This document shows positions 1 to 24,504 of a stretch of DNA of 32,499 nucleotides, piece after piece. Each line of letters opens with the position of its first letter. Within the stretch, counting starts at the first letter, position 1. Both the position numbers and the translations under genes were made by a program. Source of the stretch: Muribaculaceae bacterium Isolate-013 (NCI) (GTDB lineage: Bacteria > Bacteroidota > Bacteroidia > Bacteroidales > Muribaculaceae); contig SCEJ01000037.1 of NCBI GenBank assembly GCA_004102785.1, positions 1 through 32,499 on the forward strand, read 5' to 3'. The notes under the pieces were generated by a model. It was not told the origin of the DNA. It saw only the letters and a program-made list of their open reading frames with translations, and searched no databases.

Positions 1-364
1 CCGTCGGGAATACCAGTCCGGTGAAGGTGTGCACCCGCACCGGCACGCGGCACATCCATGCCGCCATCATGCACAGCAGTCCGGCCTTCGGGGTTATGGA
101 GTGGACCATCCGCGGTTTCTCGCTGCGGAACACCCGAATCAGCCTCCAGAGGCTCACGAGGTCCTTCAGCGGCGCCATGCGCCTCTCCATGGGCACTGCG
201 GCGGTGCGCACCCCCTCGCGCTCCTCGATATCGTGCATCGCCGGTCCGGGCGAACTGACGGCCACCACCTCGTAGCCCTCCTGCTCCCTCAGCTCCTTCA
301 AGAGCCCCCGGCAGAATGTGTCAAGCGACCCCGGCACGGTGGACGCGCGTATGATTTTTGTCAT
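1..364 (-). CDS. Glycosyltransferase family 4, N-terminal part (runs off the window)
   Basis: The minus strand is open from ATG at 364 to the window edge (121 codons). The start reads MTKIIRASTVPGSLDTFCRG, followed by stretches such as 'VHSITPKAGLL' and 'VRVHTFTGLVFP'. These fit the N-terminal acceptor-binding Rossmann half of a GT4 enzyme of the PglA/WbuB/CapM kind; the C-terminal nucleotide-sugar half with its EX7E motif is outside the window. The ATG overlaps the stop of the preceding gene as ATGA, so the start is well supported and translation is probably coupled. It is expected to add one sugar to the lipid-linked repeat unit on the cytoplasmic face. Because the preceding gene is frameshifted here, coupled translation of this gene may be reduced. 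The exact donor and linkage cannot be told. Confidence 0.85.
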   Translation of the reverse strand, partial: MTKIIRASTVPGSLDTFCRGLLKELREQEGYEVVAVSSPGPAMHDIEEREGVRTAAVPMERRMAPLKDLVSLWRLIRVFRSEKPRMVHSITPKAGLLCMMAAWMCRVPVRVHTFTGLVFPT

Positions 365-1396
365 TTTTTATAACCCAAATATTTGAAATAACTCGGAATC
401 CTGTTCAACAACACTTTAAAAGTTTTAAATCTGTTGTAGTTGAATTCCCGTAACATCTTTTTGATAGATTCCCGTCTGAATGCTCTGACTTGTTGTCTTT
501 TAAATGCCATTTCAGAGGCTTTGTCCGATATCGTCCGCCTGAATAGATTCATTATATCCGATTCACTGAAATGGAATATACCGTCACGGGTAATGCAATA
601 CGGGCGTTCGATACCTGGAGGTATCGCTATGTTCTTTTTTGTCATGAAGTGCACATAACATACCTCTTGTTTGTCAAATTTATCTACTGACGTCATGTAG
701 TACACCCATGTAGAGCCATCACATTCCTTGACAAATAGTTCCCCTAATTCCGGATTTCGGAAATTCTTCCATTTGAATTGATCCGTATAGGCATAAAAAG
801 TGACTTCATCGCCTTTGGAATAAAAGTTTCGGTTATTCCTGACAAAATACTCATTGATGCCGCATTCATCGAAATTCATGGAATATGATGTCTCAACAAT
901 ATCCTTGAAAGGTATACACCCCTCGGTATCTGAATAAAAGATGTTGTTTATTTCAGGTGTATTCCGGTATATTGACAAATGGCCGCAACGGTAGATTCGA
1001 TCATATTTCCAATATTGAATTCTATGAAGAAACTTTGATATATTGCCCCATATAAGATCGCAGTCAATATACCCCCAATATTCATAACCTTTCAGATACT
1101 CTTGAAACAGCAGTCCGTATGTGGGCTTGTAGTCACATAGTTTATATGGATGTCCAAGATAAAAACGATTATATCCCAAATTTAAAAACAATGTTTTGAA
1201 TTTCTGATATATCTGATTCCAGGACATTGATAGCACTCTGACATTATCCGGAACGGCCCCGACGGCCTGGTCGGTGACTATTAGAAAGTCAATATCGGAA
1301 TTGTCAGCACAAGATTCTATGTACCCCCCCCCAGTATGGTGGCAATTTGCCAAACCATGGCAGGGTAAGGCAGATCTTATTACACTTACGGCTCAT
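361..1396 (-). pseudogene. DUF6625-like glycosyltransferase-type gene, frameshifted at a G9 tract (probable phase-OFF state)
   Basis: The start is ATG at 1396, which overlaps the upstream stop as TAATG. It reads MSRKCNKICLTLPWFGKLPP and then YWGG, where a run of nine G (1324-1332, minus strand) shifts the frame. The product would end after 30 residues. With eight G the frame continues as YIESCADNSDIDFLIVTD to the stop at 361, giving 344 residues. The long open part holds 'HPYKLCDYKPTYGLLF', 'YWGYIDCDLIWGNI' and 'GHLSIYRN', which I associate with DUF6625 proteins of Bacteroidota surface-polysaccharide loci. The 'DCD' is a plausible DXD-type metal site, so a glycosyltransferase role is likely but unproven. 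A start at 1353 (TTG) would give an open frame but would remove the conserved N-terminus. Base composition is more AT-rich than in the flanking GT4 genes. Confidence 0.8.
1324..1332 (-). repeat. Poly-G tract, 9 G (out of frame)
   Basis: Nine consecutive C on the plus strand are nine G in the coding strand of the DUF6625-like gene, at codons W22-G23-G24. Eight or eleven would keep the gene open; nine gives a stop six codons after the shifted GTA codon that ends the tract. This is the longest G/C homopolymer in the window. Confidence 0.95.
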
Positions 1397-2520
1397 TAAG
1401 TATCGCAAAGGTATAGTTTGTATAACCGGTTTATATTCTCCACTACATCATATCCGGCGTTTTGAATAACGGGGAGTTGAGTTCTGCGTTGCGGGTGCAT
1501 ATTGTAAGTCTCAACTATTGCTTTTGCCCATTCGCCGATGTCGGAACCCAATGACATAAACCGCACATTTCCGGTGATATCCGTCTGGCGGTCGATTACA
1601 TCGGAAAGCAGACATGGCAGTCCTGCGGCCTGAGCCTCGATTACACTGACTGGCAGCCCCTCGAAAACCGACGGCATAAAAAACACATCGAATGCCTGGA
1701 GCAGATCGGGAACATCCGGACGCAGTCCGGCGAAAATAACGTTGTCGCTGATACCTGAGCGTGCGGCAAGAGTGGCGGTTTCATCCATCAGCGGTCCGCT
1801 CCCGACAAGGAGCAGCCGTGCCGAGGGATACGCTTTTACAACCTCCGCGAAAACTTTTATAATGAACGAATGGTTTTTCTGCGGGCAGAATCGCGCGACG
1901 TTTCCGATTACAAGCGCATCGGCCGGGATGCCGAGTTCCTTACGTTTCTCCTCCCTGGTGGATGGATTGAACTGATAGCGAGCGGCATCAATGGCATTGT
2001 TGAGTAACTGGAAATCACGTTTGCCATAGAGGAATCTTCCGGCATCCTTGCCGCATGCAAGTCTTTGAGTGGCAAATCTGTTAGTCCAAAGTTTGCCGAA
2101 CTGGCGGAAAATAAACTTATAGTCAAAGCCGAGGTCAGCGATATGGCTTGAAGCTATCAGATTCTTTATGCCGTATTTTTTTGCGTATCTCAGGGCGAAT
2201 CCGGAGTTTTCCTGAATATGCCCGTGCACGGCCGTGAATTCACCCCGGTGCTCTCTGAAGAAGCCGTCAAGCCACCTGAAATATGCCGGGTAGGACCACG
2301 GCCGGATGGGCATGGCTCTGAAAATCCGGCCTCCGAGCGCCTCGATTTCGTCGTCATAGTCGGCCCGCTGCTGACGGTGCACAAGAAAGTCGAACTGCAC
2401 TTTGTTGCGGTCAATCGCGCGGTAATGGTTCATTACCATTGTCTCGGCGCCTCCGCGGTTCATGGCCGTGAGCACCTGCAGGACTCTGAATGGAGTTTGT
2501 GGCACCTCTGATTTATGCAT
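1396..2520 (-). CDS. Glycosyltransferase family 4
   Basis: A 374-residue GT4 (GT-B fold) enzyme. The N-terminal domain begins after about 11 residues with 'FRVLQVLTAMNRGGAETMV', the GGAE glycine-rich loop of EpsF/EpsD-type enzymes. The C-terminal donor domain starts near residue 200 with 'LVIGNVARFCPQKNH' and carries the EX7E motif in 'FEGLPVSVIEAQAAG' near residue 300. It should transfer a hexose or similar sugar from a nucleotide donor to the growing lipid-linked repeat unit. The start at 2520 overlaps the end of the preceding GT4 by 8 bp. The next gene starts on this gene's stop (TAATG). The adjacent GT4 is a clear paralogue: both have RLACG-DAG, a -NNA-D block and a shared C-terminus. The equivalent conserved Gly-Gly here is GGA GGC, not a G run. 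Confidence 0.93.
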   Translation of the reverse strand: MHKSEVPQTPFRVLQVLTAMNRGGAETMVMNHYRAIDRNKVQFDFLVHRQQRADYDDEIEALGGRIFRAMPIRPWSYPAYFRWLDGFFREHRGEFTAVHGHIQENSGFALRYAKKYGIKNLIASSHIADLGFDYKFIFRQFGKLWTNRFATQRLACGKDAGRFLYGKRDFQLLNNAIDAARYQFNPSTREEKRKELGIPADALVIGNVARFCPQKNHSFIIKVFAEVVKAYPSARLLLVGSGPLMDETATLAARSGISDNVIFAGLRPDVPDLLQAFDVFFMPSVFEGLPVSVIEAQAAGLPCLLSDVIDRQTDITGNVRFMSLGSDIGEWAKAIVETYNMHPQRRTQLPVIQNAGYDVVENINRLYKLYLCDT

Positions 2521-3601
2521 AAATAGTCTCCATTGTTCTGGTTAGACTGGATAAGTCATATTTGCTTCCGGCCAGTCGGCCGGCATTCTTTTTGCGGTCG
2601 GTAGGAGCCAATGCATGTTTCACGGCATCGACCCAGGCCGAGACATCATTGCCAAGTGACAGGAATCGGACATTTCCGGTCACATCAATCTCGGATGTGT
2701 TTGTATCGGATGCTATTACTTTCAGGCCGGCAGCCTGAGCCTCTACCGCAACGAATGCGAGGCCTTCAAACCAGGACGGCAACAGAAAACAGTCGAAGGC
2801 AGAATAATAATCCTGTGGCTCGCTTATATTCCCGGTGAAAATCACGTCCTGAATGATACCCGAACTTTCGGCAAACTCCATAATCTCGTTTTTCATCGGA
2901 CCGTCTCCGCAAAGCATCAGTTTTGTTTTCAGTAGCGGATATTCCTGCTTAAGGCGTGTAAATAATCCGATTATGAATTTCTGGTTCTTTTCGGGAACGA
3001 ACCTGCCCATGTGGCCGATTACAAGTTCGTCGGTCAGGCCGTATTTCCGTCTGATATTCCGGCTTGCCTCAACATTGTATCGGAACCGGTCAAGGTCAAC
3101 GGCATTGTTTACAACCGTGAAATCTTTTCCCCGGAACATCCACTTGCCTGCATCCGTTCCGCATGCGAGTCGGATAAAATCCTTTTTCATGCATAATCTA
3201 CGGTTTAGAAGATGCAGCAATCTGGCCGGAGTGCCGCCCGAACCGTTGTGCGTGTTGTGCGAATGTATAATTACTTTGCCCGGAAATTTCGATGCGACAA
3301 CCGCGGGTACCGGATTGACAAAAGCGTTCATGTGAATGTGAACATAATCATATCCGCTCTTCAGGATAGAGGATAACTCGCGGTATTGCTTCAGGATATT
3401 TCTTCTAAAGTCCGTTATTATGTATATTTCCCCCCCCTTTTCCTCGATAAGCTTTTTGAATGCCTTATGTCCGATTTCCGGATTCTGAATGGCGAAATCA
3501 AAATGGTATTCAGAAGAGTCGATATTGCGGAGGATATTATAGATAAACGTTTCGGCTCCGCCTACATTCAGTCCGTGTATTACATGTAGGATTCTTTTCA
3601 T
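2513..3601 (-). CDS. Glycosyltransferase family 4 with an in-frame G8 tract (phase-variation candidate)
   Basis: A 362-residue GT4. I place the start at ATG 3601 (MKRILHVIHGLNVGGAETFI), which overlaps the upstream stop as TAATG; an upstream alternative would add 17 unconserved residues. The GGAE loop lies at about residues 14-17, the C-terminal donor domain near residue 180 ('LVIGHMGRFVPEKNQ'), and the EX7E motif in 'FEGLAFVAVEAQAAG' near residue 285. Codons K55-G56-G57-E58 contain eight G in a row. Seven G would give a stop four codons after the tract and nine G a stop nine codons after it, so this gene is ON in this sequence. It is probably an EpsF-like sugar transferase in repeat-unit assembly, paralogous to the following gene. 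Confidence 0.92.
   Translation of the reverse strand: MKRILHVIHGLNVGGAETFIYNILRNIDSSEYHFDFAIQNPEIGHKAFKKLIEEKGGEIYIITDFRRNILKQYRELSSILKSGYDYVHIHMNAFVNPVPAVVASKFPGKVIIHSHNTHNGSGGTPARLLHLLNRRLCMKKDFIRLACGTDAGKWMFRGKDFTVVNNAVDLDRFRYNVEASRNIRRKYGLTDELVIGHMGRFVPEKNQKFIIGLFTRLKQEYPLLKTKLMLCGDGPMKNEIMEFAESSGIIQDVIFTGNISEPQDYYSAFDCFLLPSWFEGLAFVAVEAQAAGLKVIASDTNTSEIDVTGNVRFLSLGNDVSAWVDAVKHALAPTDRKKNAGRLAGSKYDLSSLTRTMETIYA
3430..3437 (-). repeat. Poly-G tract, 8 G (in frame)
   Basis: Eight consecutive G in the coding strand of the GT4 gene at 2513-3601, reading AAG GGG GGG GAA. Gain or loss of one base produces a nearby stop. The neighbouring paralogue encodes the matching Gly-Gly as GGA GGC, so the protein does not require a homopolymer here. 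Confidence 0.95.
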
Positions 3602-4500
3602 TACCGATGCTGTTTTTTGCTCTTGTAAACGATGTATTTGTAAAGCATCCACCCCAGCGGCCTGGTCATGACTGTGAGGAATTTCTTCGGAGATTTTTTT
3701 AGCCAGTCACGGTCCTTGCTGATAATGCAACTGCTGTTGTAGTGGATGTTCAGGCGGATAAGATTCCTCAATGTATTCCTTTTGAGTCCCATCTCCATGA
3801 GCCGTAGTTTTGCAAAAGAGCGGGGAGAGTTGAGATACTGACGGAATATACCGGCCGACATGCTGTCGCCACCGGTCTGATATTCTACGAAACACAGGTT
3901 TTCGTTTAGAATCAGTGACGGCTGCCGGTCGTCGGCCAAAGCGAGCATATAGAAAGGATTGAAGTTTTTTTCGCCGGGGAACCCCTCCATCGGCGACACC
4001 TCTTTCATAAGGGCGGTGCGCATCACCTGCTTGGTGTCGCCGAAATGGATTTTTTTGATATACAGGTCCATCATATGGCATACTTTCAGGTCGCCTGGGA
4101 AGTAACCGCCGATGGGCTTGCCGTCAAGGGTGAAATCAAGTCCGGTAATCCCGGCATATTCGTCGCTGCCATGCTCTTTCCAGTATCCGGTGATCAGCTC
4201 CACGGCGTTGTCGGGCATGAAATCATCGGAGTCGATGCATACGTTGAGCTCCGTCTCGATAACCTCATAGGCTTTGTTGTATCCTGTGTATAGACCGCCG
4301 TTTTCCTTGTAAATATACCTTATAGGTATGCGGTTTTCTTCAATCCAGCCCCTGACCAGCCCGGCGGTGCCGTCGGTGGAGCCGTCGTCAATCACAAGCC
4401 ATTCAAAATCCTTGCATGTCTGACGCAGCAGGCTTTCGTAGGTGCGGGGCAGCGTGTGCGCGCGGTTGTAAGTGGGAGTAAAAACTGTAAGGGTTTTCAT
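3601..4500 (-). CDS. Glycosyltransferase family 2
   Basis: A 299-residue GT2 (GT-A fold). The start ATG at 4500 forms an ATGA overlap with the preceding stop and reads MKTLTVFTPTYNRAHTLPRT. Four upstream codons (to 4512) are possible but less likely. Key motifs are 'WLVIDDGSTDGT' near residue 36-47 (nucleotide binding) and 'CIDSDDFMPDN' near residue 90 (DXD metal site). The C-terminal part ('PEKNFNPFYML'-like region and 'GGDSMSAGI') resembles Bacteroidota capsule GT2 enzymes. It adds one sugar, probably with inversion, on the cytoplasmic side. It is coupled at its 3' end to the GT4 by TAATG. Acceptor and donor are not predictable. Confidence 0.92.
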   Translation of the reverse strand: MKTLTVFTPTYNRAHTLPRTYESLLRQTCKDFEWLVIDDGSTDGTAGLVRGWIEENRIPIRYIYKENGGLYTGYNKAYEVIETELNVCIDSDDFMPDNAVELITGYWKEHGSDEYAGITGLDFTLDGKPIGGYFPGDLKVCHMMDLYIKKIHFGDTKQVMRTALMKEVSPMEGFPGEKNFNPFYMLALADDRQPSLILNENLCFVEYQTGGDSMSAGIFRQYLNSPRSFAKLRLMEMGLKRNTLRNLIRLNIHYNSSCIISKDRDWLKKSPKKFLTVMTRPLGWMLYKYIVYKSKKQHR

Positions 4501-5534
4501 CTCAAAAAACAAGATAATATTCGTTTTACAAACCGTCTACATCGTTCATCTCTGATATTTTGACGGACTAACTGAATAATTGAATCAGAATCCTCATTGA
4601 TAAAATAATTGTAGACGTCGTTTCCGGTAGACAATTCTCTGAAATTGCTCCAAATGCTTTTATCACGCAATTCGGATGTTATCCAGGCGTTTAATTTTTC
4701 AGCCGGTTCATTAAGATGTATTATGCGTTGTTTGACAACAGATAAAAAAATATTCTTTATTTCAATTGACAGATATTTCTCTGCTGCTGCCAGACCATGT
4801 TTTTTGCTTTCAGCTTTTTTTATAAAATACTGTTGCTTTAAATCCGGCCAAAGATGCTTATTGTATCCTGACGTCAGTCCTCCTACACGATAATAATATC
4901 CATAGAAGTCAATAATTGAGTATTTTTTTATAAACGGGAATAAGCTAAGATTAAAAATCAAATCTTCTCCCATTTTGAATCCGGATGGATTTAAGTTGGC
5001 TCTGATTATTGTTTCCAACTTATATAATTTCCCCCAGATATTTACATCCAGTTTATTGACTCCAAAAAAAGAAATATAATAGTCGTTCATGAGAGAGGGC
5101 TGCGACAATACCTGAGGCATGACGCGGACTGTCCCTCTCTTAATGACAGGCCCGAATACCCTACACCAAAGCATCTGCACAACATCAGCATCGGTTGTTT
5201 GCATGTTGTATGCTAATACTTTGAAGGTGTTTTTGTGGATATAGTCGTCGGAATCTAAGAAAAATACCCCCCCCGAGTTGAGATTATCAGTCAGAAAGCG
5301 TAAGCCTGTAAATCGAGCCTTGTCAACTCCTTCATTTTGAGCCTTATCAATGAAGTGTATTTTTTCAGGATATTTATTTTGATAAGACAGACATATATCA
5401 CGGCTTTTGTCTGTTGAGGCATCGTTCACCAGAATTATATCGAAATTATGGTATGTTTGCCTCAGAACGGAATCGATACACTGTCTGAGGTAACGTTGAG
5501 TGTTGTATACAGGTATTACACAGTGTATTTTCAT
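4497..5534 (-). CDS. Glycosyltransferase family 2 with an in-frame G8 tract (phase-variation candidate)
   Basis: A 345-residue GT2. The N-terminus reads MKIHCVIPVYNTQRYLRQCI, with 'IILVNDASTDKS' near residue 35-46 and the DXD site 'FFLDSDDYI' at residues 91-99. Immediately before it, codons S87-G88-G89-V90 hold eight G in a row. Seven G gives a stop after three more codons; nine G gives a stop within about 25 codons. Either change would leave only the nucleotide-binding half, without the metal site. The gene is ON here. It is AT-rich compared with its GC-richer neighbours, which suggests separate acquisition. It overlaps the next gene as ATGA and follows the polymerase gene after a 10 bp gap. 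Confidence 0.92.
   Translation of the reverse strand: MKIHCVIPVYNTQRYLRQCIDSVLRQTYHNFDIILVNDASTDKSRDICLSYQNKYPEKIHFIDKAQNEGVDKARFTGLRFLTDNLNSGGVFFLDSDDYIHKNTFKVLAYNMQTTDADVVQMLWCRVFGPVIKRGTVRVMPQVLSQPSLMNDYYISFFGVNKLDVNIWGKLYKLETIIRANLNPSGFKMGEDLIFNLSLFPFIKKYSIIDFYGYYYRVGGLTSGYNKHLWPDLKQQYFIKKAESKKHGLAAAEKYLSIEIKNIFLSVVKQRIIHLNEPAEKLNAWITSELRDKSIWSNFRELSTGNDVYNYFINEDSDSIIQLVRQNIRDERCRRFVKRILSCFLR
5267..5274 (-). repeat. Poly-G tract, 8 G (in frame)
   Basis: Eight G in the coding strand of the GT2 gene at 4497-5534, reading TCG GGG GGG GTA, four residues before the catalytic DSDD. One-base changes truncate the enzyme. Confidence 0.95.
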
Positions 5535-5544
5535 TTCTTATAAA

Positions 5545-6663
5545 TCAATAATATATGAAAGTCATGAATAGGGTGAAAGCTGTGTGGGCCATCAGTATGG
5601 TGCCTGCGATGCGCCCCTGGCTCTTTCCCCACACGTTCATCCGCAGACAGGGATATGCAATCACTACCGGATATAGGAACCATGACAGGTAGGCGAACCG
5701 GTTGCTGTAAGCGGCGTTCATCATCATTACCCAGAACGAATTGGCCAAAGTGTAGGTGCTCAGCAGAATTCGGTAGGTGCGGTCGGATGTGCCCGTCTTT
5801 GATGTCACGACCATTCCCAGCAGTATAGGCATGAAACTGTAAAGGAGGAAGTCGGGGCGGAATCCACCCTTGAAGCCCTGGTCGGCGTATGCGTCGGCGG
5901 CCTGGACGTATCCGGAAAGGCGGTCGTCGAAACCGAGGCCGGTGAAGAAACTCTCGATTGCCCCGCGGGCCACCACACTAAGCACAATCGACAGGAACCA
6001 GAAGTATATCAGAGGGCGCGGGTTTTTGATAAACAGGGCTGCCATCGAACAGACAATCGGCAGCGCCGAAGATTTGTGGATGAAAAATGCGGCCATGCAC
6101 AGCAGCGCGTAAGCCATATAGTTCTTTCTCTCGGTGGCGATAAAGGAGATGGCAAGGATTACAATCGAGCATGCCAGGCCGTTTCTGATGCCGTTTGTCG
6201 CATATGTGAAGAATGAGAAGGCTCCCATATAAAAGAGCAGTGCCCCGTAGGTGTTGTTGCCGAACAGCCGCCTGAGACCGCCCAACGCGAAGAACATATA
6301 GCCGAACATTATCACGGTGAAATATACCGACACATCGACATATTTCGCACACAGCGCGGTGATAAAAGCAAAAAGCCATTCATATTCTCCGATACCGATT
6401 CTGACATCCTCAAGTTTAACCCATCCATAGGTCATGGCATAGTTGGCAGTGTCGCCAAACAAGACTCCTGACAGGGGGCGGTTGCCGATAATGAGGCAGT
6501 ATGCTGTCAGAGCAATTACGATGAGCCCCAACTGGCTGTTGTTGCCCTGCAGCATGTGGCGGGCGTCGCGGTTCTGCCACGACTGGAACGCTGCGATACT
6601 CAAGGCTGTCACGGCGAGAATAGTGCCGCTCTGGAAGTATTTTGCAATCTCGATTGAAATCAT
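5545..6663 (-). CDS. EpsG-family polysaccharide polymerase (Wzy-type)
   Basis: A 372-residue multi-pass membrane protein. The start at 6663 overlaps the upstream stop as TAATG (MISIEIAKYFQSGTILAVTA); the longer open frame upstream is not needed. About ten hydrophobic segments are visible, for example 'LGLIVIALTAYCLII', 'VYFTVIMFGYMFFALGG', 'LACSIVILAISFIA' and 'AIESFFTGLG' with a hydrophilic periplasmic loop after it. Residues 'GDTANYAMTYGW', 'NGIRNGLA' and 'FIHKSSALP' match the EpsG family (D/Y near TM2, R-x-x-x-A and H-x-S). It is the only polymerase candidate in the window and should join lipid-linked repeat units at the periplasmic face after Wzx flipping. Confidence 0.87.
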   Translation of the reverse strand: MISIEIAKYFQSGTILAVTALSIAAFQSWQNRDARHMLQGNNSQLGLIVIALTAYCLIIGNRPLSGVLFGDTANYAMTYGWVKLEDVRIGIGEYEWLFAFITALCAKYVDVSVYFTVIMFGYMFFALGGLRRLFGNNTYGALLFYMGAFSFFTYATNGIRNGLACSIVILAISFIATERKNYMAYALLCMAAFFIHKSSALPIVCSMAALFIKNPRPLIYFWFLSIVLSVVARGAIESFFTGLGFDDRLSGYVQAADAYADQGFKGGFRPDFLLYSFMPILLGMVVTSKTGTSDRTYRILLSTYTLANSFWVMMMNAAYSNRFAYLSWFLYPVVIAYPCLRMNVWGKSQGRIAGTILMAHTAFTLFMTFIYY

Positions 6664-7412
6664 TACAGACGCATTAAGTTTTTGAGACGCCCTGAAGCCC
6701 TTGTGCCGATAAGGCGGTGAAGCATACGCGAGCACCAGGTGCGGAGACCCGACTGCCGGTCGCACCATGTTTTGGAGAACCAGTGGATAGAGACCGTCTC
6801 AGGGGTGACGCGCAGCCGGCCGGTGGCATCGTCCAGCGGGTTAAAATAAGTTGCAGGATATACGGATATTCCGGCCACATGCTGTGTGCCGCCGACGCAC
6901 CGCAGTCCTGCTTTTTTCATCTCCCTGGTGGTTATATTCACCACCGCGTCGGTTATGTTGAGGGTATTGTCATCCTTGATGAACCTGAGCCTGGAATAAT
7001 ACTCCAGTATCGGCTCATAGGCGTCCATCCCCCGGGAGGCTCCCATTCCGAGCCCGGGATTCACCGCCATATTGCCTGATTCGGAACCGGGGTCAATCTC
7101 AAAACCCAGGAATGGTCCGGCGGCGATGATGTCGTCCATCGGGCGGATTACCTCCACGTCGGTGTCGAAGTACAGGCCTCCGTGCTCGTAAAGAATTCTG
7201 AAGCGGGCGTAGTCGCTGACGAATGCATATTTCCCTACGGAGTATGCCTGGGCTGTGTATGGGATGGCGTTGACATCGAAATTATCCTCGTTCCACTCCA
7301 CGATCTCATAGTCGGGGAGATATTTGCGCCAAGAGGCTATGCATTTCTTCGCAGATTCAGGCAGAGGCTTGCGCCCGAACCAGCAATAGTGTATATTTTT
7401 GGGTATAGACAT
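6663..7412 (-). CDS. GT32-type glycosyltransferase (DXD sugar-binding family)
   Basis: A 249-residue protein starting MSIPKNIHYCWFGRKPLPES, the hallmark 'IPKxIHYxWFG' opening of the Gly_transf_sug/GT32 family. The block 'YAFVSDYARFRILYEHGGLY' followed by 'FDTDVEV' (near residue 82) supplies the DXD metal and donor site. It probably transfers galactose, mannose or a related sugar. A paralogue sits at 14480-15256. The gene is GC-richer than the AT-rich genes at 10-17 kb. It ends on the start codon of the polymerase gene (TAATG) and lies 2 bp after the acyltransferase gene. Confidence 0.92.
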   Translation of the reverse strand: MSIPKNIHYCWFGRKPLPESAKKCIASWRKYLPDYEIVEWNEDNFDVNAIPYTAQAYSVGKYAFVSDYARFRILYEHGGLYFDTDVEVIRPMDDIIAAGPFLGFEIDPGSESGNMAVNPGLGMGASRGMDAYEPILEYYSRLRFIKDDNTLNITDAVVNITTREMKKAGLRCVGGTQHVAGISVYPATYFNPLDDATGRLRVTPETVSIHWFSKTWCDRQSGLRTWCSRMLHRLIGTRASGRLKNLMRL

Positions 7413-7414
7413 CG

Positions 7415-7960
7415 TTATTTGTAAATCGGCTGATAATCCAGGTGTTGTTTCTGCCTTACAATTGTGGACGGAGGTATGGCGCCGTCAATTATACATCCGG
7501 CGCCAATCACACAATTGTCTCCAATGTGTGTCCCCTTGAGAAGTATTACATCTGAAGCAATCCAGCAATTATTGCCGACAATAATCTCTCCCGTATTCAG
7601 GGCGCATGACACACCCCCGTCTTTTGAAAATTTATGATTGTTGTCAAAAATTCTGACACCGGGGCCAAACATACAGCCGGCGCCGATGCTGACGCGGTTA
7701 TGGCAGCTAATCATGCATTGCCGGTTCATGTATGTACGTTCACCGATGTCAAGGGAACCATTGCCATGAGTCTGGATGTCGACACCAGGAGCCAATTCGA
7801 TATTCCGGCCAAAACGGCACTCCGACCTGCCATAAAGCCGGACTGAAGCTCCGGGAGAAATTCGTTCGACTGCGCATGCCCGGTAGCGCGACTTATAACG
7901 AATCCGGTATATTATATTGCGGATGAGATTATACAGCAGTATAAAAACTGTCCTGATCAT
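7415..7960 (-). CDS. Hexapeptide-repeat (LbH) O-acyltransferase
   Basis: A 181-residue left-handed beta-helix acyltransferase of the serine-acetyltransferase/WcaF/maltose-acetyltransferase class. Hexad repeats run from about residue 55 to the end: 'GRNIELAPGVDIQTHG', 'SIGAGCMFGPGVRIFDNNHK' (the His of the active-site block), 'IIVGNNCWIASDVILLKGTH' and 'IGDNCVIGAGCIIDG'. The N-terminus has a basic, hydrophobic stretch (MIRTVFILLYNLIRNIIYRI) that may associate with the membrane. It should use acetyl-CoA or another acyl-CoA to decorate a sugar of the repeat unit. The start overlaps the preceding GT4 stop as ATGA. Confidence 0.92.
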   Translation of the reverse strand: MIRTVFILLYNLIRNIIYRIRYKSRYRACAVERISPGASVRLYGRSECRFGRNIELAPGVDIQTHGNGSLDIGERTYMNRQCMISCHNRVSIGAGCMFGPGVRIFDNNHKFSKDGGVSCALNTGEIIVGNNCWIASDVILLKGTHIGDNCVIGAGCIIDGAIPPSTIVRQKQHLDYQPIYK

Positions 7961-10214: not shown

Positions 10215-10241
10215 TGGATTACAGACTGACTTAATTTATTA

Positions 10242-10955: not shown

Positions 10956-10967
10956 GTGAATAAAAAA

Positions 10968-13477: not shown

Positions 13478-13502
13478 ACTGATAAATTTTTATATCGGAC
13501 TC

Positions 13503-14435: not shown

Positions 14436-14479
14436 TGCGACTCAAAATTAATTTGATTTTTCTTTATCGGTGAGTCCGA

Positions 14480-15256: not shown

Positions 15257-15257
15257 G

Positions 15258-16214
15258 TTATTTCTTTAAAGCTAAAAGCATCCTCATAGGCCACAAGCCG
15301 ATATGATGCGACAACAAATACGCCAGCCTATAGGCGAATGAAGCTTGTGAATAATGAAATTCCCAGCGGGCTACTTCCGGGAACAGCGTACACCATTTTT
15401 TCAAGTCGGATTTATTCAGGAACAAATCCTTGATATCTCTTTTTGATCTCAATAGCAAACCAAGCACGGATTTGCTGATGCCATGCCTTTCAAAAAATGC
15501 ATCAAGCCTGTTTAAACACTCGATTCGTTGTTTGACTACTGATGGTGAGTTTATACGGGTGGTAATAGAGTCGTCGTTGGTTTTGTTGTAATGATAGAAT
15601 GAACTATGTACATGACCTACACTTTTTGCATGATACAGCGCTCTGCATACAAACCCGAAATCCTCCATGAAATTAACATCTGGATAAAATGTAATATCAT
15701 TTTCAGCAATCAGTTGCCGCTTAATCAAGTGTCGCCATAGTGCTGGGAAGAAGAATCTATCCGACTGAATTGGTTCAAATGGCTTTTCAAAAGTCAACAG
15801 TGAACTTTTCTCCCTTTTTCCATCTTTTAAATGCTCCATATAGCCGCACGTTACTATATCGTAATCATTGTCTTTTGCAGCGTGATACATTTTTTCATAC
15901 AAATCATTATCTACCCAGTCGTCGGGATCACAATGGATAATATATTCTCCGGTCGCATGCTTTAAGCCTTCATTCCTGGCTGCCGCCTGCTTGGAGTTGA
16001 CAGGCATCCTGACTATCTTGATACGATTATCTGAATTTTCATATCTGCCGGCGACAGATTTTAAAATTTCAATAGAATTATCTGGAGTGCAGTCATCAAC
16101 AAATATGAATTCAATCCCATCCAATGATTGACTGAATAAACTTTCCGCACAACGGGAAATAAACTTCTCGGCCTTATACACCGGAATGATAACAGAAATC
16201 TTAAATGGAATCAT
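15258..16214 (-). CDS. Glycosyltransferase family 2
   Basis: A 318-residue GT2. The start is an ATGA overlap with the preceding gene: MIPFKISVIIPVYKAEKFIS. 'IEFIFVDDCTPDNSIEIL' (near residue 35-52) and 'GEYIIHCDPDDWVDNDLYEK' (near residue 90-108, metal site DPDD) are the donor and metal motifs. The C-terminal portion 'NFMEDFGFVCRALYHAK' contains the ED pair typical of LgtA/WaaV-like GT2 enzymes. It is AT-rich. It should add one sugar to the repeat unit. Confidence 0.92.
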   Translation of the reverse strand: MIPFKISVIIPVYKAEKFISRCAESLFSQSLDGIEFIFVDDCTPDNSIEILKSVAGRYENSDNRIKIVRMPVNSKQAAARNEGLKHATGEYIIHCDPDDWVDNDLYEKMYHAAKDNDYDIVTCGYMEHLKDGKREKSSLLTFEKPFEPIQSDRFFFPALWRHLIKRQLIAENDITFYPDVNFMEDFGFVCRALYHAKSVGHVHSSFYHYNKTNDDSITTRINSPSVVKQRIECLNRLDAFFERHGISKSVLGLLLRSKRDIKDLFLNKSDLKKWCTLFPEVARWEFHYSQASFAYRLAYLLSHHIGLWPMRMLLALKK

Positions 16215-17269
16215 CTGCAGAGTTTCTTATGGAACCGATTGAATCGACTAAATAACGAAATTTTCAGTCGGACTCTTAACGGAATCTTAAAATCATGCGG
16301 ATAGTCTGATTTGCGGATTTCTTCAATTATCTTGTAATTACATATCTTGTCCAGCAATATTTGGTTAATGCTCTGATAAATATCCTCGCATTTTGTTTTA
16401 AGATATAAGTCGTGACTCTTCATCGCCTCAGCTATCTCAGAATCCCATACATTCAGCATATATAAATATAGGAATTTATAATACTGCGTTATCCTTACAT
16501 GTAGAAAACGCTTTGAGGCCGAAGAATGAGCTTCATTATAAAAATCTATCAAGCATTTACCCACAGCAAAGAATTGTGCTATGCTGTTTCTAAGCTGTGC
16601 TGCGGACATTGTCTGCCCTAAGCGACCAATAAGGTATCTGTAGAGCACTAAGTCCACAAATCTGATGGTTTTACACTTGGAGAACGGAATAATTGCCCAC
16701 TCCGTATCAGTGTAGCTTATGCCTTCAGTCTGACGATATGAAAAGTGGCTGAATATATCACAACGGTAAGCCAATTTGTGCATTTGTGCCTGGCCGGCCA
16801 GCGTACTGTTTTCGCTTATGTTACTTAGAGTATATGAATGGTTGATTATGACATCAACATTTCTGAAATCAAAATAACCGATTATATTGCCCGATTCATC
16901 AATCGTAACATTAGGTGTGATGACGGCGTCATCGGAGATAGAGGGGAGGAGGCGGACGAAGCTGGAGAAGGCGGCGGTGTCGAAAGTGTCATCGGCGTCG
17001 AGGACTTTGATGTAGCGGCCGGTGGCGAGTGGGAGGGCGGCGTTTATGCATGAGCCGTAGTTTCCGTTGGGCTTGTCGATTACGCGTATTGAGCCGGGGT
17101 AACGGTCGGCATAGGAGTGGGCGATTTCTGAGGAGCGGTCCTTGGAGCCGTCGTTGACCACGAGAACCTCCACGGCGTCAAACTCGGGTATAAGGAGGGA
17201 GTCAAGGCATTTGCCTATGTATGCCTCCATGTTATATGTTGGTATGATTATAGAGATCTGCTTTTCCAT
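16211..17269 (-). CDS. Glycosyltransferase family 2, compositionally chimeric
   Basis: A 352-residue GT2. The N-terminal catalytic part is MEKQISIIIPTYNMEAYIGK, 'VEVLVVNDGSKDRSSEI' and 'GRYIKVLDADDTFDT' (DXD at residues 91-94). The first about 116 codons are GC-rich, like glf upstream: 60-base blocks from 16921 to 17160 are about 53-65% GC by my count. From about 16920 downward the gene turns abruptly AT-rich (33% for 16861-16920, 27% for 16441-16500). The frame is intact, so this looks like an in-frame recombination joint just after the metal site. The start overlaps the glf end by 22 bp. The end overlaps the next GT2 as ATGA. Confidence 0.9.
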   Translation of the reverse strand: MEKQISIIIPTYNMEAYIGKCLDSLLIPEFDAVEVLVVNDGSKDRSSEIAHSYADRYPGSIRVIDKPNGNYGSCINAALPLATGRYIKVLDADDTFDTAAFSSFVRLLPSISDDAVITPNVTIDESGNIIGYFDFRNVDVIINHSYTLSNISENSTLAGQAQMHKLAYRCDIFSHFSYRQTEGISYTDTEWAIIPFSKCKTIRFVDLVLYRYLIGRLGQTMSAAQLRNSIAQFFAVGKCLIDFYNEAHSSASKRFLHVRITQYYKFLYLYMLNVWDSEIAEAMKSHDLYLKTKCEDIYQSINQILLDKICNYKIIEEIRKSDYPHDFKIPLRVRLKISLFSRFNRFHKKLCR

Positions 17270-18390
17270 AAGTCAAATACTTGTGCGATTACGGGAGCCA
17301 TGTCGTAGTAGCGGTATTCGGCAAGACGTCCGCCGAAAATCACGTCGCTTTCGGCCGCGGCGAGTGAGCGGTATGCCTCGGCAAGAGCGTTGTTGCGGTC
17401 GTCGTTGACGGGATAATAAGGCTCCATGCCGGGAGCGTATTCGGTAGAGAACTCTCGCGAGATTACGGTGTTGGGGTTGGCATACACATCCTGGCCGAAC
17501 GACTCAAAGTGTTTGTGCTCGATTATACGGGTCCAGGGTGTCACGCCGTCGGTGTAGTTGACCACGGCGTTGCCCTGATAGTTGGGGGTGTGGAGCACTT
17601 CGGTCTCGAAACGCACAGTGCGCCAGTCGAGGCGTCCGAGCCTGAATCCGAAATATTCGTCGATCGGTCCGGTATAAACGAGCTTGTCGGCGATCTCTTT
17701 CCAGGAGTGGCGCATAGTGGAGAAATCCACCCCGGTGCGCACGTCACTTCCTGCGAGCAGGCCGTCAGTCAGACGGTTGTATCCTCCCTCCGGAATCCCC
17801 TGATAGAGGTCGTTGAAGTAGTTGTTGTCAAATGTGAGACGCACGGGCAGTCGGCGGATGATGAATGCCGGCAACTCTGTGCACGGACGTCCCCACTGCT
17901 TCTCGGTGTAGCATTTTATCAGCTTTTCGTAGATGTCGCGGCCTATCAGCGCAAGGGCCTGCTCCTCAAGGTTGCGGGGCTCGGTGACGCCATCCTGTTC
18001 CATCTGCCTGCGGGCATCGGCCCGCTGCTCCTCCAGCCTGGCAAGCACTTCGGCGGGAGTGCGCACGCCCCATATCTGATAGAATGTGTTCATGTTGAAC
18101 GGCAGGTTGTACAGACGGCCGTCGGGGGCGGAGGCCACCGGCGAGTTTGTGTAGCGGTTGAACGGCACGATGGAGTTGACAAACTCCCAAACCTGCCGGT
18201 CGGATGTGTGGAATATGTGCGCGCCGTATTTGTGCACGTTTATCCCTTTGACCGACTCGCAGTAGAGGTTGCCTCCGGTGTGTGCGCGACGGTCGATTAC
18301 CAGACATCGCCGGCCGGCATCGGTGGCCAGACGGGCGAATGTGGCTCCGAACAGTCCGGCGCCCACTATGAGGTAGTCGTATTTCTTCAT
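17248..18390 (-). CDS. glf: UDP-galactopyranose mutase
   Basis: A 380-residue flavoenzyme that converts UDP-galactopyranose to UDP-galactofuranose. From ATG at 18390 it reads MKKYDYLIVGAGLFGATFAR (FAD-binding GxGxxG), followed by 'HTGGNLYCE', 'NVHKYGAHIFHTSDRQVWEF' and 'FNRYTNSPVA'. 'IRRLPVRLTFDNNYFND', 'YQGIPEGGYNRL' and 'VYTGPIDEYFGFRLGRL' are Glf-specific blocks that contact the substrate and flavin. A TTG three codons upstream (18399) is possible but less likely. Its presence predicts galactofuranose in the product and a Galf-transferase among the neighbouring GT2 genes, plausibly the overlapping one. It is GC-rich relative to the genes after it. Confidence 0.95.
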   Translation of the reverse strand: MKKYDYLIVGAGLFGATFARLATDAGRRCLVIDRRAHTGGNLYCESVKGINVHKYGAHIFHTSDRQVWEFVNSIVPFNRYTNSPVASAPDGRLYNLPFNMNTFYQIWGVRTPAEVLARLEEQRADARRQMEQDGVTEPRNLEEQALALIGRDIYEKLIKCYTEKQWGRPCTELPAFIIRRLPVRLTFDNNYFNDLYQGIPEGGYNRLTDGLLAGSDVRTGVDFSTMRHSWKEIADKLVYTGPIDEYFGFRLGRLDWRTVRFETEVLHTPNYQGNAVVNYTDGVTPWTRIIEHKHFESFGQDVYANPNTVISREFSTEYAPGMEPYYPVNDDRNNALAEAYRSLAAAESDVIFGGRLAEYRYYDMAPVIAQVFDLWKSRSL

Positions 18391-18431
18391 GCTTGACAAT
18401 TAACTTATTATGGCCACGGATGATTAAGCCG

Positions 18432-19376
18432 TCAGCCAAAAAGTTTGTTGAAGACAATTTTTGTCAGTCCGTGACATCTGCTGATAAAATATCTGAAACG
18501 CGACGTGAGATAATGGGGCGACACTCCTTGCTCCTTACATAAGATCGCATAACATCCGCTATCTCCTGCCGCCACAGCCGTCGCCCTCATGTTCCGCTCG
18601 AAATCAGCCTTTATTCTGTCGAGCTCGGCTACTGTATCAGAATCTTTTCCAGTAAAAAAATCTCTTAAAATCCGGATAGAACGGCTGTCGTTGCGATACC
18701 GCGGCATGTTGATTTTCCCTTTTGACATCTGCATGTATGATGCTGGGTTCATGCAGTTGTAGTGATATACCACAGAATCGACCTTCGCGATGTTTCCGGC
18801 ATGATATGCCAGCCGTGGCAATGTGTGATGGTCCTCGCCTATGTTCACCCCCTCTTCGGCTCTGATATCGTTGTCGATATAAAGACTTTTGCGGATGAGG
18901 CGACGCCATATCACATGGTCAAGTGTCAGTTGTATGGTCCGGCGCACCATATCCATGCTGCTGCCATAATCCGGTTCGTAAAACATTTCTTCACGATCGG
19001 CGTAATGGGCCAGAGCGTTGCCCGACACAATATCGGCGTCTGTTGTCTGCTGTTTTTCTGCCAAAAGCTTTATCGCGTCGGGCTCAAGCCAGTCGTCCGA
19101 ATCAAGATGCATCACAAACTCACCGCATGCACAGTCGATTCCTGTGTTGCGGGCTGCAGCGAGTCCGCGGTTATGATCGTGGCGGACGATTCTGAATTTT
19201 ACGTGGCTATTGTTCCGTTCAATAAAATCTCGGGCGATGTCAATGCTCCGGTCTTTGCCGCAGTCATCGACGATGACACACTCCAGTTCTCCTTGATACG
19301 TTTGCCCGGCAACCGACTCCAGGCAGCGAAGAATGTAGTTTTCTACGTTGTAAACCGGTATTAATACTGAAATCAT
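18432..19376 (-). CDS. Glycosyltransferase family 2
   Basis: A 314-residue GT2. I choose ATG 19376 (MISVLIPVYNVENYILRCLE), 7 bp after the preceding stop; the open frame extends 12 codons further but overlaps that gene. 'LECVIVDDCGKDRSIDIA' (near residue 31-48) and 'GEFVMHLDSDDWLEPDAIKL' (near residue 88-107) hold the nucleotide- and metal-binding sites. 'GVNIGEDHHTLPRLAYHA' supplies the usual ED motif. It should add one sugar to the lipid-linked intermediate; the donor is unknown. Confidence 0.92.
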   Translation of the reverse strand: MISVLIPVYNVENYILRCLESVAGQTYQGELECVIVDDCGKDRSIDIARDFIERNNSHVKFRIVRHDHNRGLAAARNTGIDCACGEFVMHLDSDDWLEPDAIKLLAEKQQTTDADIVSGNALAHYADREEMFYEPDYGSSMDMVRRTIQLTLDHVIWRRLIRKSLYIDNDIRAEEGVNIGEDHHTLPRLAYHAGNIAKVDSVVYHYNCMNPASYMQMSKGKINMPRYRNDSRSIRILRDFFTGKDSDTVAELDRIKADFERNMRATAVAAGDSGCYAILCKEQGVSPHYLTSRFRYFISRCHGLTKIVFNKLFG

Positions 19377-19383
19377 AGTGCAG

Positions 19384-20589
19384 TCAGCATTCTGCCACTT
19401 TATTGTCGGCAATATTGCGGAGCTGATTCTCCAGCCATTGGCGTGACAGCTCTCTCCGGCGGTTAAGTTCGTCGAGGTTTATAGTGGTTTTTTCACCCTT
19501 TTCAAAAGAGCGTAGCGCTCCTTGGATATCGGATTGCATAAGCGGCCCCTCGATTACGCTACCCTCGAATTCCTTCATTCTTGCGTGCATCTCCTTTCGC
19601 ACGTTATCGGTAGGCACAATCACACGCACATTTCTGTTGTATATGATTGAGAACATCAGAGCATGATAGGAATTTGTCACAATCCAGTCAGCCGCCGAAA
19701 TCTCTCTCATAAAGTCCTTTATTGCAGCGGAGATGTAGATTTTCACAGGCGATTTAAACAGCCGCGTCTTGTCACGGATCAGTTCCTTTATTCCCTTCGC
19801 CGACCTGCAGAAATATTTTTCAAATCTGTCGGGAAACACAATTACATCGCAATTGTTCCTCCGGGCATAGTCTTCAAGAACCGGCAGCAGGTCGAAAAGC
19901 TTTTCGGCAATTGTGTAGCAGAGCAGGCGTTTACGCTTGTGTTTTCTCTTGCATTTGAACTTATCCCAGAGTTCGGGCGACACCAGCAGTGTCGGGTCAA
20001 CCACTTTCTCTGCCTTGAACCCGAGATCCTCCACCAATCTGACACCCTGCTGCTCACGCACACTTATTGCCTTGAACCTTGCGAATCCCCGGCGGTACTC
20101 CTCAAGATACTTCGGCATCAGTTCCGGCATTCCTATGCTTGCGGCATATGATATTCCCGGAATCGAAGGGTTGATGTCTTTGAGCAGATACGGCACCGGA
20201 GAGTAAAGATTGGCATTCCATATCTGGTCGCTGCCGACAGAAATCATATCCACCCCAAGATCAGCCGGCGCATCCTTCCAGTCGTAGAAAGAGTAATCCG
20301 TTGTGTGCAGATATTTTTTATGGAAACGCAGCGTCTTGAGTACCCGCAAGATATTGGATGTTCTGCCGATACTGAAAAAGCACATGAAAAGGCTGATAAG
20401 GCGGGTCTTTAGCCCCGTGTCTGTGAGGTGGCCAAGCAGCAGACGGTTATCGGGCGTAATATATCTGTCGATTATAATCGGGTCCTGACCGAGCTCCTTA
20501 TAAGCTTCCTGCATGGCAAATGCCTGCAAGGTACAGCCATAATTCATCTCTGAATGATACGTCAGGATGCCTATCTTCAGTTTGTTCAT
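19384..20589 (-). CDS. Polysaccharide pyruvyl transferase family protein
   Basis: A 401-residue protein from ATG 20589 (MNKLKIGILTYHSEMNYGCT). The N-terminal 'NYGCTLQAFAMQEA' and the central 'DMISVGSDQIWNANLY' with 'GISYAASIGMPEL' are signatures of the PF04230 (CsaB/WcaK-like) family. 'FKAISVREQQGVRLVEDLG', 'VVDPTLLVSPELW' and 'ADWIVTNSYHALMFSIIY' follow in the expected order of the GT-B-like fold. The family moves pyruvate from phosphoenolpyruvate to a sugar as a ketal, although some members are only sugar transferases. It lies next to the nitroreductase-like and QueC-like genes and probably modifies the same sugar. Confidence 0.9.
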   Translation of the reverse strand: MNKLKIGILTYHSEMNYGCTLQAFAMQEAYKELGQDPIIIDRYITPDNRLLLGHLTDTGLKTRLISLFMCFFSIGRTSNILRVLKTLRFHKKYLHTTDYSFYDWKDAPADLGVDMISVGSDQIWNANLYSPVPYLLKDINPSIPGISYAASIGMPELMPKYLEEYRRGFARFKAISVREQQGVRLVEDLGFKAEKVVDPTLLVSPELWDKFKCKRKHKRKRLLCYTIAEKLFDLLPVLEDYARRNNCDVIVFPDRFEKYFCRSAKGIKELIRDKTRLFKSPVKIYISAAIKDFMREISAADWIVTNSYHALMFSIIYNRNVRVIVPTDNVRKEMHARMKEFEGSVIEGPLMQSDIQGALRSFEKGEKTTINLDELNRRRELSRQWLENQLRNIADNKVAEC

Positions 20590-20604
20590 TTCAAAGACCA
20601 ACTA

Positions 20605-21630
20605 TTAATGAAAACTCAGAATATCGGAGAGCTCTCTTCTCGGCGACTCCGCGATGTCGATTTCTTCGGGAGTACGGCCGCAGGTTATCATCGCCGCCAC
20701 AACTTCATTCCCGGGGATTCCTGTCAGTTCGTGTAGAGCCTTGTCTTTTTCAGGATCCACACAGATTGACCAGTTGAGAATGCAGTGTGCTATTTTGTGA
20801 TAGAACAGAGAGTAGCATAAGTTCATTATGAATATGCCGCAGTTTGTATATATGTCGTAACGCTCGTCAATCCAGCAGATGCTTGACAGGTCGCCGGTTA
20901 TGATTAGCACCTTGTCGGCATCGGTGCCGAATCCGCGGTTGCCGCTCTGCATGGCCAGCACTTTATCTTTAAGTTCTTTGTCGGAAATGCAGTGCACTCT
21001 CACCGGCTGGCGGTTGCAGGCCGACGGTGCGGTCATCGCCAGCTCCACAGCTTTCTTGATTTCATCCTCGCTGACAGTGCCGCAGTAATGTCTTAACGTA
21101 TGTCTGGAGCGGGCAAAGCGCTCGAAGTCGGAATGCACATAGGCATAGAACTCCTTGTCTGTCTGATGCGGCTGCACAGCCGCCTTTACATCGGGGAATC
21201 TGTCAGTCAGGGAGTGAATCTTCTGCCAGAAAGAGTGGTGGTCCTTGCCGTCATAATCACGATGCATCACAAGATATGCCTTTAGAATTCCTATGCCGTG
21301 CACAACCTGCGCGGCCGGTTCGCCGTATAGCCGAATGTATTTCTCAATCAGCTCGACAAGCGACGTGACGGCATCCTGACCGAAATTGAATCTCCGGCGA
21401 GGCATGGTCAGACCTTTTTCCAGGCCGTGGTATGTATGGATGATCCGTGCAATCATATTCTCCCTGGTGTCGGGTCTGAATACTCCCGCATGGCTCATGT
21501 ACCGGTCCATGTCGTAGTTCAACGCCCTTTCCATGGATAGCTCGTCATGCGTCTTTCCATAATTCCGCAGCCGTTCAGCCAATGCTGCCGGGTGCAGTAA
21601 AAGGTAGATTATGCTTTTTATTCTGTTCAT
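20605..21630 (-). CDS. Nitroreductase-like flavoprotein with a long N-terminal extension
   Basis: A 341-residue protein. Residues from about 175 onward have a nitroreductase fold: 'RSRHTLRHYC' (FMN phosphate contact), 'AMTAPSACNRQPVRVHCI', 'GNRGFGTDADKVLIITGD' and the C-terminal 'GNEVVAAMITCGRTPEE'. The N-terminal 170 residues, rich in His and basic residues, have no family I recognise. Most nitroreductases are about 200 residues, so this is a two-part protein. It would be an FMN-dependent oxidoreductase with an unknown substrate. Its place between the QueC-like and pyruvyl transferase genes points to a sugar-modifying step rather than nitro-compound metabolism. Confidence 0.85.
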   Translation of the reverse strand: MNRIKSIIYLLLHPAALAERLRNYGKTHDELSMERALNYDMDRYMSHAGVFRPDTRENMIARIIHTYHGLEKGLTMPRRRFNFGQDAVTSLVELIEKYIRLYGEPAAQVVHGIGILKAYLVMHRDYDGKDHHSFWQKIHSLTDRFPDVKAAVQPHQTDKEFYAYVHSDFERFARSRHTLRHYCGTVSEDEIKKAVELAMTAPSACNRQPVRVHCISDKELKDKVLAMQSGNRGFGTDADKVLIITGDLSSICWIDERYDIYTNCGIFIMNLCYSLFYHKIAHCILNWSICVDPEKDKALHELTGIPGNEVVAAMITCGRTPEEIDIAESPRRELSDILSFH

Positions 21631-21645
21631 GTCAGTAATGTCAGG

Positions 21646-22904
21646 TTATCCCAACACTTTATTCTTTATCCGCCAGATTATTGACTTTATGCGGCCGATT
21701 CTTCTGAAACGGTTTATCCTGCGCTCGTCATTGAACTCGAAATTCAGAATCCACGACATATTCCTGTCCTTCTTCCAGAAATCAGCTTCCTTCAGGAAGT
21801 CAGCCTTGTTAGCCTCCCAGAATGCCGCATTCACATAATTATATTTAAGGAAGTCATGCAATTCGCGGTATCCGTTCTTTCCGAACCGGAATCCATAGTG
21901 GTTCGGGTCGGCATGATTGCTGATGATTTCCGTAATCGTCCGATAGCATTTTTCACAATGGCAGCAATTCTCGGAAGCTGTGGAATACCAGCATACTTTC
22001 AGTTCGACTTTCAGATTGTTACCTTTGCAGTAGTCAATTATTTTCCGGGCTTTTCCCGACCTGTCAAGATTCTCATCAACCATCTTGAATGTGCATCCCG
22101 CTATTTTAATCGCATCGACCATATCGACATTGTTGGCATCAAAGCCGAACGACTGCTGAGGATATGAGGATCCGATATAATGGATTCCTGTATTCTGAAG
22201 ATATAAAAGCGGGGCAATGGCAGATGTCATGGAAATGATATGGGCGATACTTGCCCACCAGCCGTGGTTATGCTCCGGTTTGATGATTTCACCCAGACAC
22301 TTCTCGAGATTGTTTTCATTGAAAAATCTGCGGCAGCTCGATTTGATTATAATGAAGTCGCTGCCGGTCTGTGCGGTAAGTCTGGAAAGATATCTTTCCA
22401 GGGCTTCTCTGCCGGATGTGTCGGTAAGGAGCAGATCTCCGCCCCAGATATTTATAAGAGTCGGTTTTTCACTTATTTTGTCGATAAAAGCGCTTGTGGC
22501 ATCGATTCCTCCCGTGAAAAACAACGAGGAATTACCCCCCCTATGCAATTTCTTGATTTACAGAGGGTAAGCTTATTGGTCTGGACGTCGAAGCAGAAAT
22601 CCGCATAGGGAAACATTTTTTTGAATGCGGCTTTTATACCGGGAATACTTCCGTAGAAAGCCTCGTCAAGGACCGGAACTCTGATGCCGAGCCCCAATAG
22701 CATTGACACACACATGACACTACCTACAAAGGGCACTGCGAGTACGCTTTCGGGTACAGATGTTATATCAAATTTATCAGGTAATTCAAAGTATAACTTC
22801 CGGGTTGTATCGGCGATATACGGCTTGAATTCCGACGGGTATTCAAAGTCGTATTCACATCTGTTTCCGTTGACGGTAATCTTTTTTAACTCGATATACC
22901 TCAT
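21646..22904 (-). pseudogene. QueC-like PP-loop enzyme, frameshifted at a G7 tract (probable phase-OFF state)
   Basis: The start is ATG at 22904 (MRYIELKKITVNGNRCEYDF). An N-terminal domain of about 120 residues leads to 'LCKSRNCI', where a run of seven G (22535-22541) shifts the frame, giving a 143-residue product ending ALLSTK. One more G makes a 419-residue protein that continues 'GGGNSSLFFTGGIDATSAF'. The span is 1259 nt, so one added base makes it divisible by three. TGGID (restored residues 131-135) is a PP-loop ATP-pyrophosphatase motif of the SGGxD type. C305-x8-C314-x2-C317-x2-C320 ('CWYSTASENCCHCEKC') matches the zinc site of QueC. QueC converts a carboxylate to amide and nitrile with ATP; by analogy this may activate a carboxylate. 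The substrate is unknown. Confidence 0.82.
22535..22541 (-). repeat. Poly-G tract, 7 G (out of frame)
   Basis: Seven G in the coding strand of the QueC-like gene, after codon I121. Eight (or five) would keep the gene open; seven leads to a stop at 22473. The two halves of the gene overlap across this tract in different frames. Confidence 0.95.
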
Positions 22905-24469: not shown

Positions 24470-24504
24470 ATTAATGATTTTCCTTGGAAACTCTGTATTA
24501 CCAT

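Follow-up and report, generated by a model that had tools for sequence, protein, structure and literature searches.

In Campylobacter jejuni, poly-G contingency loci are intragenic runs of G or C whose changes in length switch genes; they are mainly G9-G10, with G8 at the low end, and a restriction-modification (RM) gene is among those named (PMC8355987). Bacteroides capsule loci are described as making surface polysaccharide phase-variable through invertible promoters (PMC3090145, PMC11868660). In the polysaccharide (PS) locus of B. fragilis 638R, an acetyltransferase gene is frameshifted at a run of four C, and slipped-strand variation was suggested by the authors (PMC3090145). For an acyltransferase of Akkermansia cps1, mononucleotide repeats and suggested slip-strand variation are mentioned in PMC13343947. 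Here we analyse four G runs in a polysaccharide operon of Muribaculaceae bacterium Isolate-013 (NCI) (assembly GCA_004102785.1, contig SCEJ01000037.1); the stretch analysed, 32,499 nucleotides long, is called the window below. These runs are probably poly-G contingency loci, that is, sites of slipped-strand phase variation of surface-glycan genes, and we hold this reading with good confidence.

The first-pass annotation of this DNA had reported runs of 9, 8, 8 and 7 G on the coding strand of four genes of one polysaccharide operon, each encoding Gly-Gly as GGG GGG, with no G or C run longer than six outside the operon. All of this was recovered: the runs lie on the minus strand (Table 1), Gly-Gly is written GGG GGG in the upstream frame of all four, and the longest runs elsewhere (27251, 29992, 31494) have six bases. 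Its further proposal, that eight is the open state throughout and leaves the two G8 genes intact and the G9 and G7 genes frameshifted, agrees with open-frame analysis. Frames are identical on either side of the runs at 3430 and 5267. At 1324, one base separates the frame of the gene upstream from the 320-codon frame downstream; at 22535, the offset between the stretch before the run (126 codons) and the one after it (295 codons) is again one base, in the opposite sense. All four registers therefore coincide at eight, and a change of one unit in run length takes a gene in or out of frame, as at contingency loci. We take the product of the gene split at 22535 to be PP-loop-like from its LFFTGGIDA motif.

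In the mechanism that we propose, replication slippage would add or drop one G in a run and thereby close (ON) or break (OFF) the frame around it, enzyme by enzyme. In the present assembly, the G9 of the DUF6625 gene and the G7 of the PP-loop-like gene would set both OFF, the G8 of the two glycosyltransferase genes would leave these ON, and the population would be expected to be mixed for surface-glycan structure. We further infer that the runs slip often and reversibly, under selection, and that the glycan changes as a result.

Table 1. Coordinates of the runs and genes discussed. Plain positions are those of the window; positions after a locus number (L) refer to loci of same-genus genomes (G numbers). 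The last five rows are frameshifted genes of the census, which also counts the shifted window genes at 1324 and 22535.
Feature	Position	Strand	Run	Remarks
Run out of register	1324..1332	-	G9	starts inside codon 22 of the DUF6625 gene (frameshifted); then TA
Run in frame	3430..3437	-	G8	in family 4 glycosyltransferase (GT4) gene; TA flank absent; the least certain run
Run in frame	5267..5274	-	G8	in family 2 glycosyltransferase (GT2) gene, directly before the FLDSDD stretch; then TA
Run out of register	22535..22541	-	G7	precedes the LFFTGGIDA motif of the PP-loop-like gene (frameshifted); then TAA
DUF6625 gene, two registers	361..1396	-		N-terminal piece (...PWFGKLPPYW) and 320-codon piece, the latter matching DUF6625 from profile position 16
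GT4 gene	2513..3652	-		first ATG of frame at 3601
GT2 gene	4497..5534	-
Gene with LFFTGGIDA motif	21646..22904	-		split by the run: upstream part 22542-22904, downstream part 295 codons
Polysaccharide flippase, same operon	22910..24547	-		PF01943
NusG/KOW protein, operon head	24617..25141	-
Short hairpin	25534..25582	.		upstream of the NusG-like gene
Own-genome acyltransferase	L028 5323		C9
G003 PP-loop-like copy	L097 13539		C8
G003 Branch-family glycosyltransferase	L098 4735		G8
G003 HsdS	L120 3558		G9	both halves match Methylase_S
G005 acyltransferase	L209 17373		G9

Homologues of the gene at 22535 carry runs at the same place. Both of its halves align, at 27-29% identity, with two copies in the same-genus genome G003, each with a coding-strand C run just before FFxGGVDA; the flanks of these two runs are near-identical, and they were therefore evidently inherited together. 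One copy (L097 13539) has C8 and is out of frame, the other (L098 12993) has C9 and is in frame. In Duncaniella sp. NALB_7823_3 (L171), of the same family, C9 stands at this place and the gene is out of frame; genome G214 has the same sequence as L171 across the 2000 bases compared. Together with the shifted G7 of the window, homologous alleles thus vary in both length and ON/OFF state. The homopolymer, G or C, is present in 4/4 close homologues, the window included; since it encodes Gly-Gly in the window but Pro-Pro in the other three, the common feature is the homopolymer and not the residues. A scan of GTDB genomes for homologues gave 52 loci, the motif being located in 51 (L200 could not be judged): a G or C run of at least six within 75 bases before the motif was found in all three Muribaculaceae rows (the two G003 copies among them) and in 0/48 others. 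The first-pass annotation had named, as evidence that would refute it, orthologues in related strains that encode the same residues without homopolymers and are never frameshifted; the close homologues of 22535 keep the homopolymer and are in part shifted. Two homologues of DUF6625 have no run of at least six.

The protein itself gave no Pfam, NCBIfam or PDB sequence match (the window piece being the one scanned in NCBIfam), and its G003 homologue gave one NCBIfam match far under cut-off. It combines an FFxGGxD motif with NCCxCEKC and has relatives in Clostridia, Bacteroidales and others.

Frame and gene class were then compared in a census of 134 long runs, comprising 133 of the 142 runs of at least eight G in five same-genus genomes and the G7 of the window. 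All runs of G000, G001, G003 and G004 were included and 16 of 25 in G005, the nine omitted fitting the promoter pattern described below. Classes were assigned by Pfam, or by eye or similarity for L101, L113, L139, L219 and L230, and comprised 29 glycan/RM genes, 15 secreted or surface genes, 25 housekeeping or other genes, 12 runs of the promoter pattern and 53 runs that are intergenic or without family support. Assigned by judgement to glycan/RM were a PF00884 sulfatase-like gene (L104), a TupA-type ATP-grasp gene (L010), hexapeptide acetyltransferases (L142, L233 3533), GtrA (L156 4601), an FrhB-like gene (L210 2257) and a MatE-type flippase (L223), while 'housekeeping' takes in TamB, PorZ, an M16 peptidase and an OPT transporter. 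Clear frameshifts were found in 7/29 glycan/RM genes, compared to 0/25 housekeeping and 0/15 secreted or surface genes (Fisher p 0.012 against housekeeping, 0.0014 against both classes together). At L209 2475, outside this count, a G10 is fused to ATG and the acyltransferase frame that follows lacks a separate start; this gene is probably OFF, and including it gives 8/29 (p 0.005).

Glycan/RM genes in frame include a C5-DNA methyltransferase (L009 5130), acyltransferases, a flippase, an O-antigen ligase, DUF1919 and GT9 genes. Housekeeping genes with runs of equal length and counted in frame include ligA (in two species), mutS, aspS, clpX, fumarase, queA, fructose-bisphosphate aldolase and pyruvate:ferredoxin oxidoreductase; one doubtful case, L226, has its run after the last Pfam match, where a late frameshift is possible and would make the count 1/25. 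Other automatic shift flags were dropped: an in-frame gene accounts for L010, L135, L210 10899 and L226; L125, L143 6341 and L156 7634 have, by our reading, a run at or ahead of the probable start; and L029, L119, L128, L155, L212 and L021 have no annotated gene, L021, the one scanned among these, giving no family match. We do not take the census as proof of phase variation, because runs of at least eight G are of several kinds: some are chance Pro-Pro or Gly-Gly of housekeeping genes, some belong to a promoter class or to contingency genes, and 53/134 are intergenic or unclassed. To call all poly-G in the genome contingency loci would be wrong, since many runs have arisen by chance and a distinct promoter class accounts for others. 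Runs of at least ten G in relatives were set aside, many artefact-like long runs being among the matches listed.

A second property separates the same classes. Read on the G strand, the dinucleotide TA directly follows the run in 19/29 glycan/RM genes, in either coding orientation, versus 1/25 housekeeping genes (p 2e-6); after G4-G7 in all fetched sequence it is found in 5-8% of cases. Three of the four window runs are followed by TA (Table 1). In five glycan regions, selected for holding such long runs, exact counts of G3 to G10 were 1327, 344, 73, 16, 4, 7, 4 and 1, with a second population at 8-9, and TA followed 12/73 G5 (16%), 1/16 G6, 1/4 G7, 6/7 G8 and 4/4 G9. Part of the contrast is composition, because glycan genes are A+T-richer and TA follows 16% of G5 there. 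Among 119 genomes of the order, G8TAA was counted 6 and 9 times in two genomes of Muribaculaceae and elsewhere mostly 0-3 times; several other genomes had 4-7, so G8TAA was rejected as a trait exclusive to the family, and the reversed control was not neutral.

Chance occurrence was estimated by synonymous-codon shuffling of the operon coding pieces (4000 shuffles), which predicts 0.47 runs of at least seven G and 0.066 of at least eight. The four runs of at least seven were matched in 3/4000 shuffles and the three of at least eight in 1/4000. The shuffled pieces omit the codons of the two frameshifted runs; for the two G8 runs inside them, two runs of at least eight arose in 9/4000 shuffles and two of at least seven in 305/4000. 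Coding sequence here thus holds runs longer than codon use predicts, a mark of simple-sequence-repeat contingency loci; since the window was picked out for its runs, the figures are post hoc and a guide only. Genome-wide, exact G6, G7, G8, G9 and G10 number 535, 89, 22, 6 and 2, and three of the 30 runs of at least eight fall within the window; such runs are therefore just modestly over a geometric tail and are not restricted to the operon.

Slipped-strand phase variation of a surface glycan, as first proposed, is the best reading of the homologous runs of differing length and phase, of clear frameshifts confined to glycan/RM genes among the classed genes and of the G8-TA signature. It does not extend to every run equally: it is strong for 22535, good for 1324, moderate for 5267 and weak for 3430. 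Several points weigh against it. The evidence consists of assemblies, a single one for the species of the window, and switching is read from sequence comparison. Gene classes were judgement calls made after the frames had been seen. The two shifted acyltransferases match Pfam in the upstream piece only, the upstream piece alone of the Branch-family gene was scanned, and downstream continuity in all three is our reading. The A+T richness of glycan genes lifts TA frequency a little. Among the 48 outside relatives, L179 has a G7 within the motif, and more distant PP-loop-like homologues of the family have no G or C run where the motif could be located (6/9 rows). The two DUF6625 homologues without a run, the two found in 198 family genomes, are distant ones. 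Finally, the run at 3430 has no TA flank.

This last point also belongs to the alternative that survives best, which we regard as possible while leaning to the other side: part of the set would be chance, with contingency loci at 1324 and 22535 only and ordinary use of Gly-Gly codons behind the run at 3430 and possibly that at 5267. A neighbouring GT4 gene has LGG in a stretch similar to the region of 3430, so that Gly-Gly there may be ordinary; the genes at 3430 and 5267 are both in frame, and the homologue comparison covered neither. Against this, two runs of at least eight G are seen in operon coding pieces for which the shuffles predict far less than one.

That the runs are mutational hot spots without selection, at which dispensable glycan/RM genes drift out of frame one way at chance homopolymers, appears unlikely. 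Glycan genes are often dispensable, and G8 also occurs in housekeeping genes, where purifying selection would hold the frame. Such drift leaves aside, however, the excess over codon shuffling in the operon, the surplus of runs of 8-9 over 7 in glycan regions with their TA flank, the presence at one site of a G run in one lineage and of a C run in others, and the in-frame copy beside an out-of-frame one. Shifted genes are moreover open on both sides to plausible ends (the upstream side of 1324 being only about 22 codons and the downstream side of L098 4735 only 46), and no second lesion was noticed within the stretches inspected. Least probable of all is homopolymer sequencing or assembly error, with every gene intact and the 9 and 7 miscounted: the data are indeed assemblies, some of the same genus with artefact-like poly-G at contig ends, but housekeeping genes with equal runs are spared (0/25 versus 7/29 shifted), which makes error unlikely, and it would not account for C8 and C9 in two copies of one genome, nor for the TA signature.

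The contig-end poly-G just mentioned is very long and partly interrupted (L064, L067, L077; G006 C48, G009 C48, G010 C58) and is probably an assembly artefact.

Part of the genomic G8 runs, though not those of the window, is accounted for by a promoter class. In intergenic sites of this class, G8-TA stands between a TTAAC box upstream and TAnnTTTG, the Bacteroidota -7 element, downstream. A shorter form of the pattern matched 43 times in 11/14 genus genomes (0 when reversed); with the TTAAC box included, it was found in 110/198 family genomes and 21/30 genera, with no reversed match in the table. Of 30 fetched loci, 27 fit; in 14 of them linker and run add up to 12, and in 17 the distance from run end to TAnnTTTG is 19. 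Since linker plus run is often 12, run length tends to be compensated by the linker. Most printed promoter sequences have a second TTAAC-like box 10 nucleotides further upstream; the layout is thus a TTAAC box (usually two, 10 nucleotides apart), G7-G11, TA, and TAnnTTTG about 19 nucleotides past the run (for example L013 5830, L022 324, L027 5101 and loci L031-L060). By our reading, many of the downstream genes appear to begin like secreted proteins. A family-wide extension, which we regard as speculative and rather doubtful, is that poly-G (G8-9 then TA) would be a general switch element, toggling translation in surface-glycan and RM genes in either orientation and, near -33 of this promoter class (TTAAC-N5-TTAAC, G7-11, TA, TAnnTTTG about 19 nucleotides on), tuning transcription of secreted-protein genes; G8-TA could be favoured by some shared factor or by a mutational process.

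Other run-bearing genes were noted in the same genomes. Acyl_transf_3 genes of three same-genus species (L143 6341, L233 7223, L210 10899) have C8 or C9 at the same N-terminal position (LPPPI); in the assemblies, the start of each is in frame. The C5-DNA methyltransferase of the window's own genome (L009 5130) has a G8 in frame, and a type I HsdS of G003 (L120 3558) is split by a G9; phase-variable methylation is possible for both. Three G003 genes (L110 3450, L114 3535, L135 3536) carry a G8 or C9 within an apparent signal peptide, all in frame.

In the window, the operon-like series runs on the minus strand from the NusG/KOW and flippase genes (Table 1) to the contig start and contains many GT2, GT4, capsule-synthesis, pyruvyl-transferase, UDP-galactopyranose-mutase and UDP-sugar-dehydrogenase genes; its GC content is 0.46, compared to 0.55 in the rest. 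From its position, we take the NusG/KOW protein to be of the UpxY type. Upstream of the operon, the region examined (24400-26700) has no promoter-flanking inverted repeats of an invertible promoter; its repeats are two short hairpins and one 15-nucleotide pair, 351 nucleotides apart, and nothing more.

If the contingency-locus reading is true, several glycan, acyltransferase and RM genes of gut commensals would be tract-switched, the ON/OFF states of populations in mice could be read as a barcode, and what are called 'pseudogenes' in genomes of this kind may be OFF alleles. No paper among the matches listed dealt with tract-based phase variation in Muribaculaceae, most subscription papers and bioRxiv preprints lying outside the coverage. 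The runs are best placed with poly-G contingency loci, here in Muribaculaceae commensals. With the C. jejuni loci they share intragenic runs, length change as the switch (here proposed) and an RM gene in the set; they differ in the Bacteroidales host, in lengths of mostly G8-G9, in the use of G or C on the coding strand and in the strong TA flank, and those described here are known from assembled sequence (PMC8355987). With Bacteroides capsule loci, the operon shares surface polysaccharide in Bacteroidales and phase variation, there described and here proposed; switching here would instead act within genes, enzyme by enzyme, and the region examined upstream shows no promoter-flanking repeats (PMC3090145, PMC11868660). 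The B. fragilis 638R case also concerns slippage in a glycan acetyltransferase, but is a single strain difference at a four-base run with no set of long runs (PMC3090145). Akkermansia cps1 likewise offers a capsule-locus acyltransferase of a gut commensal, in another phylum and for one gene, and the paper that mentions it itself shows inversion (PMC13343947).

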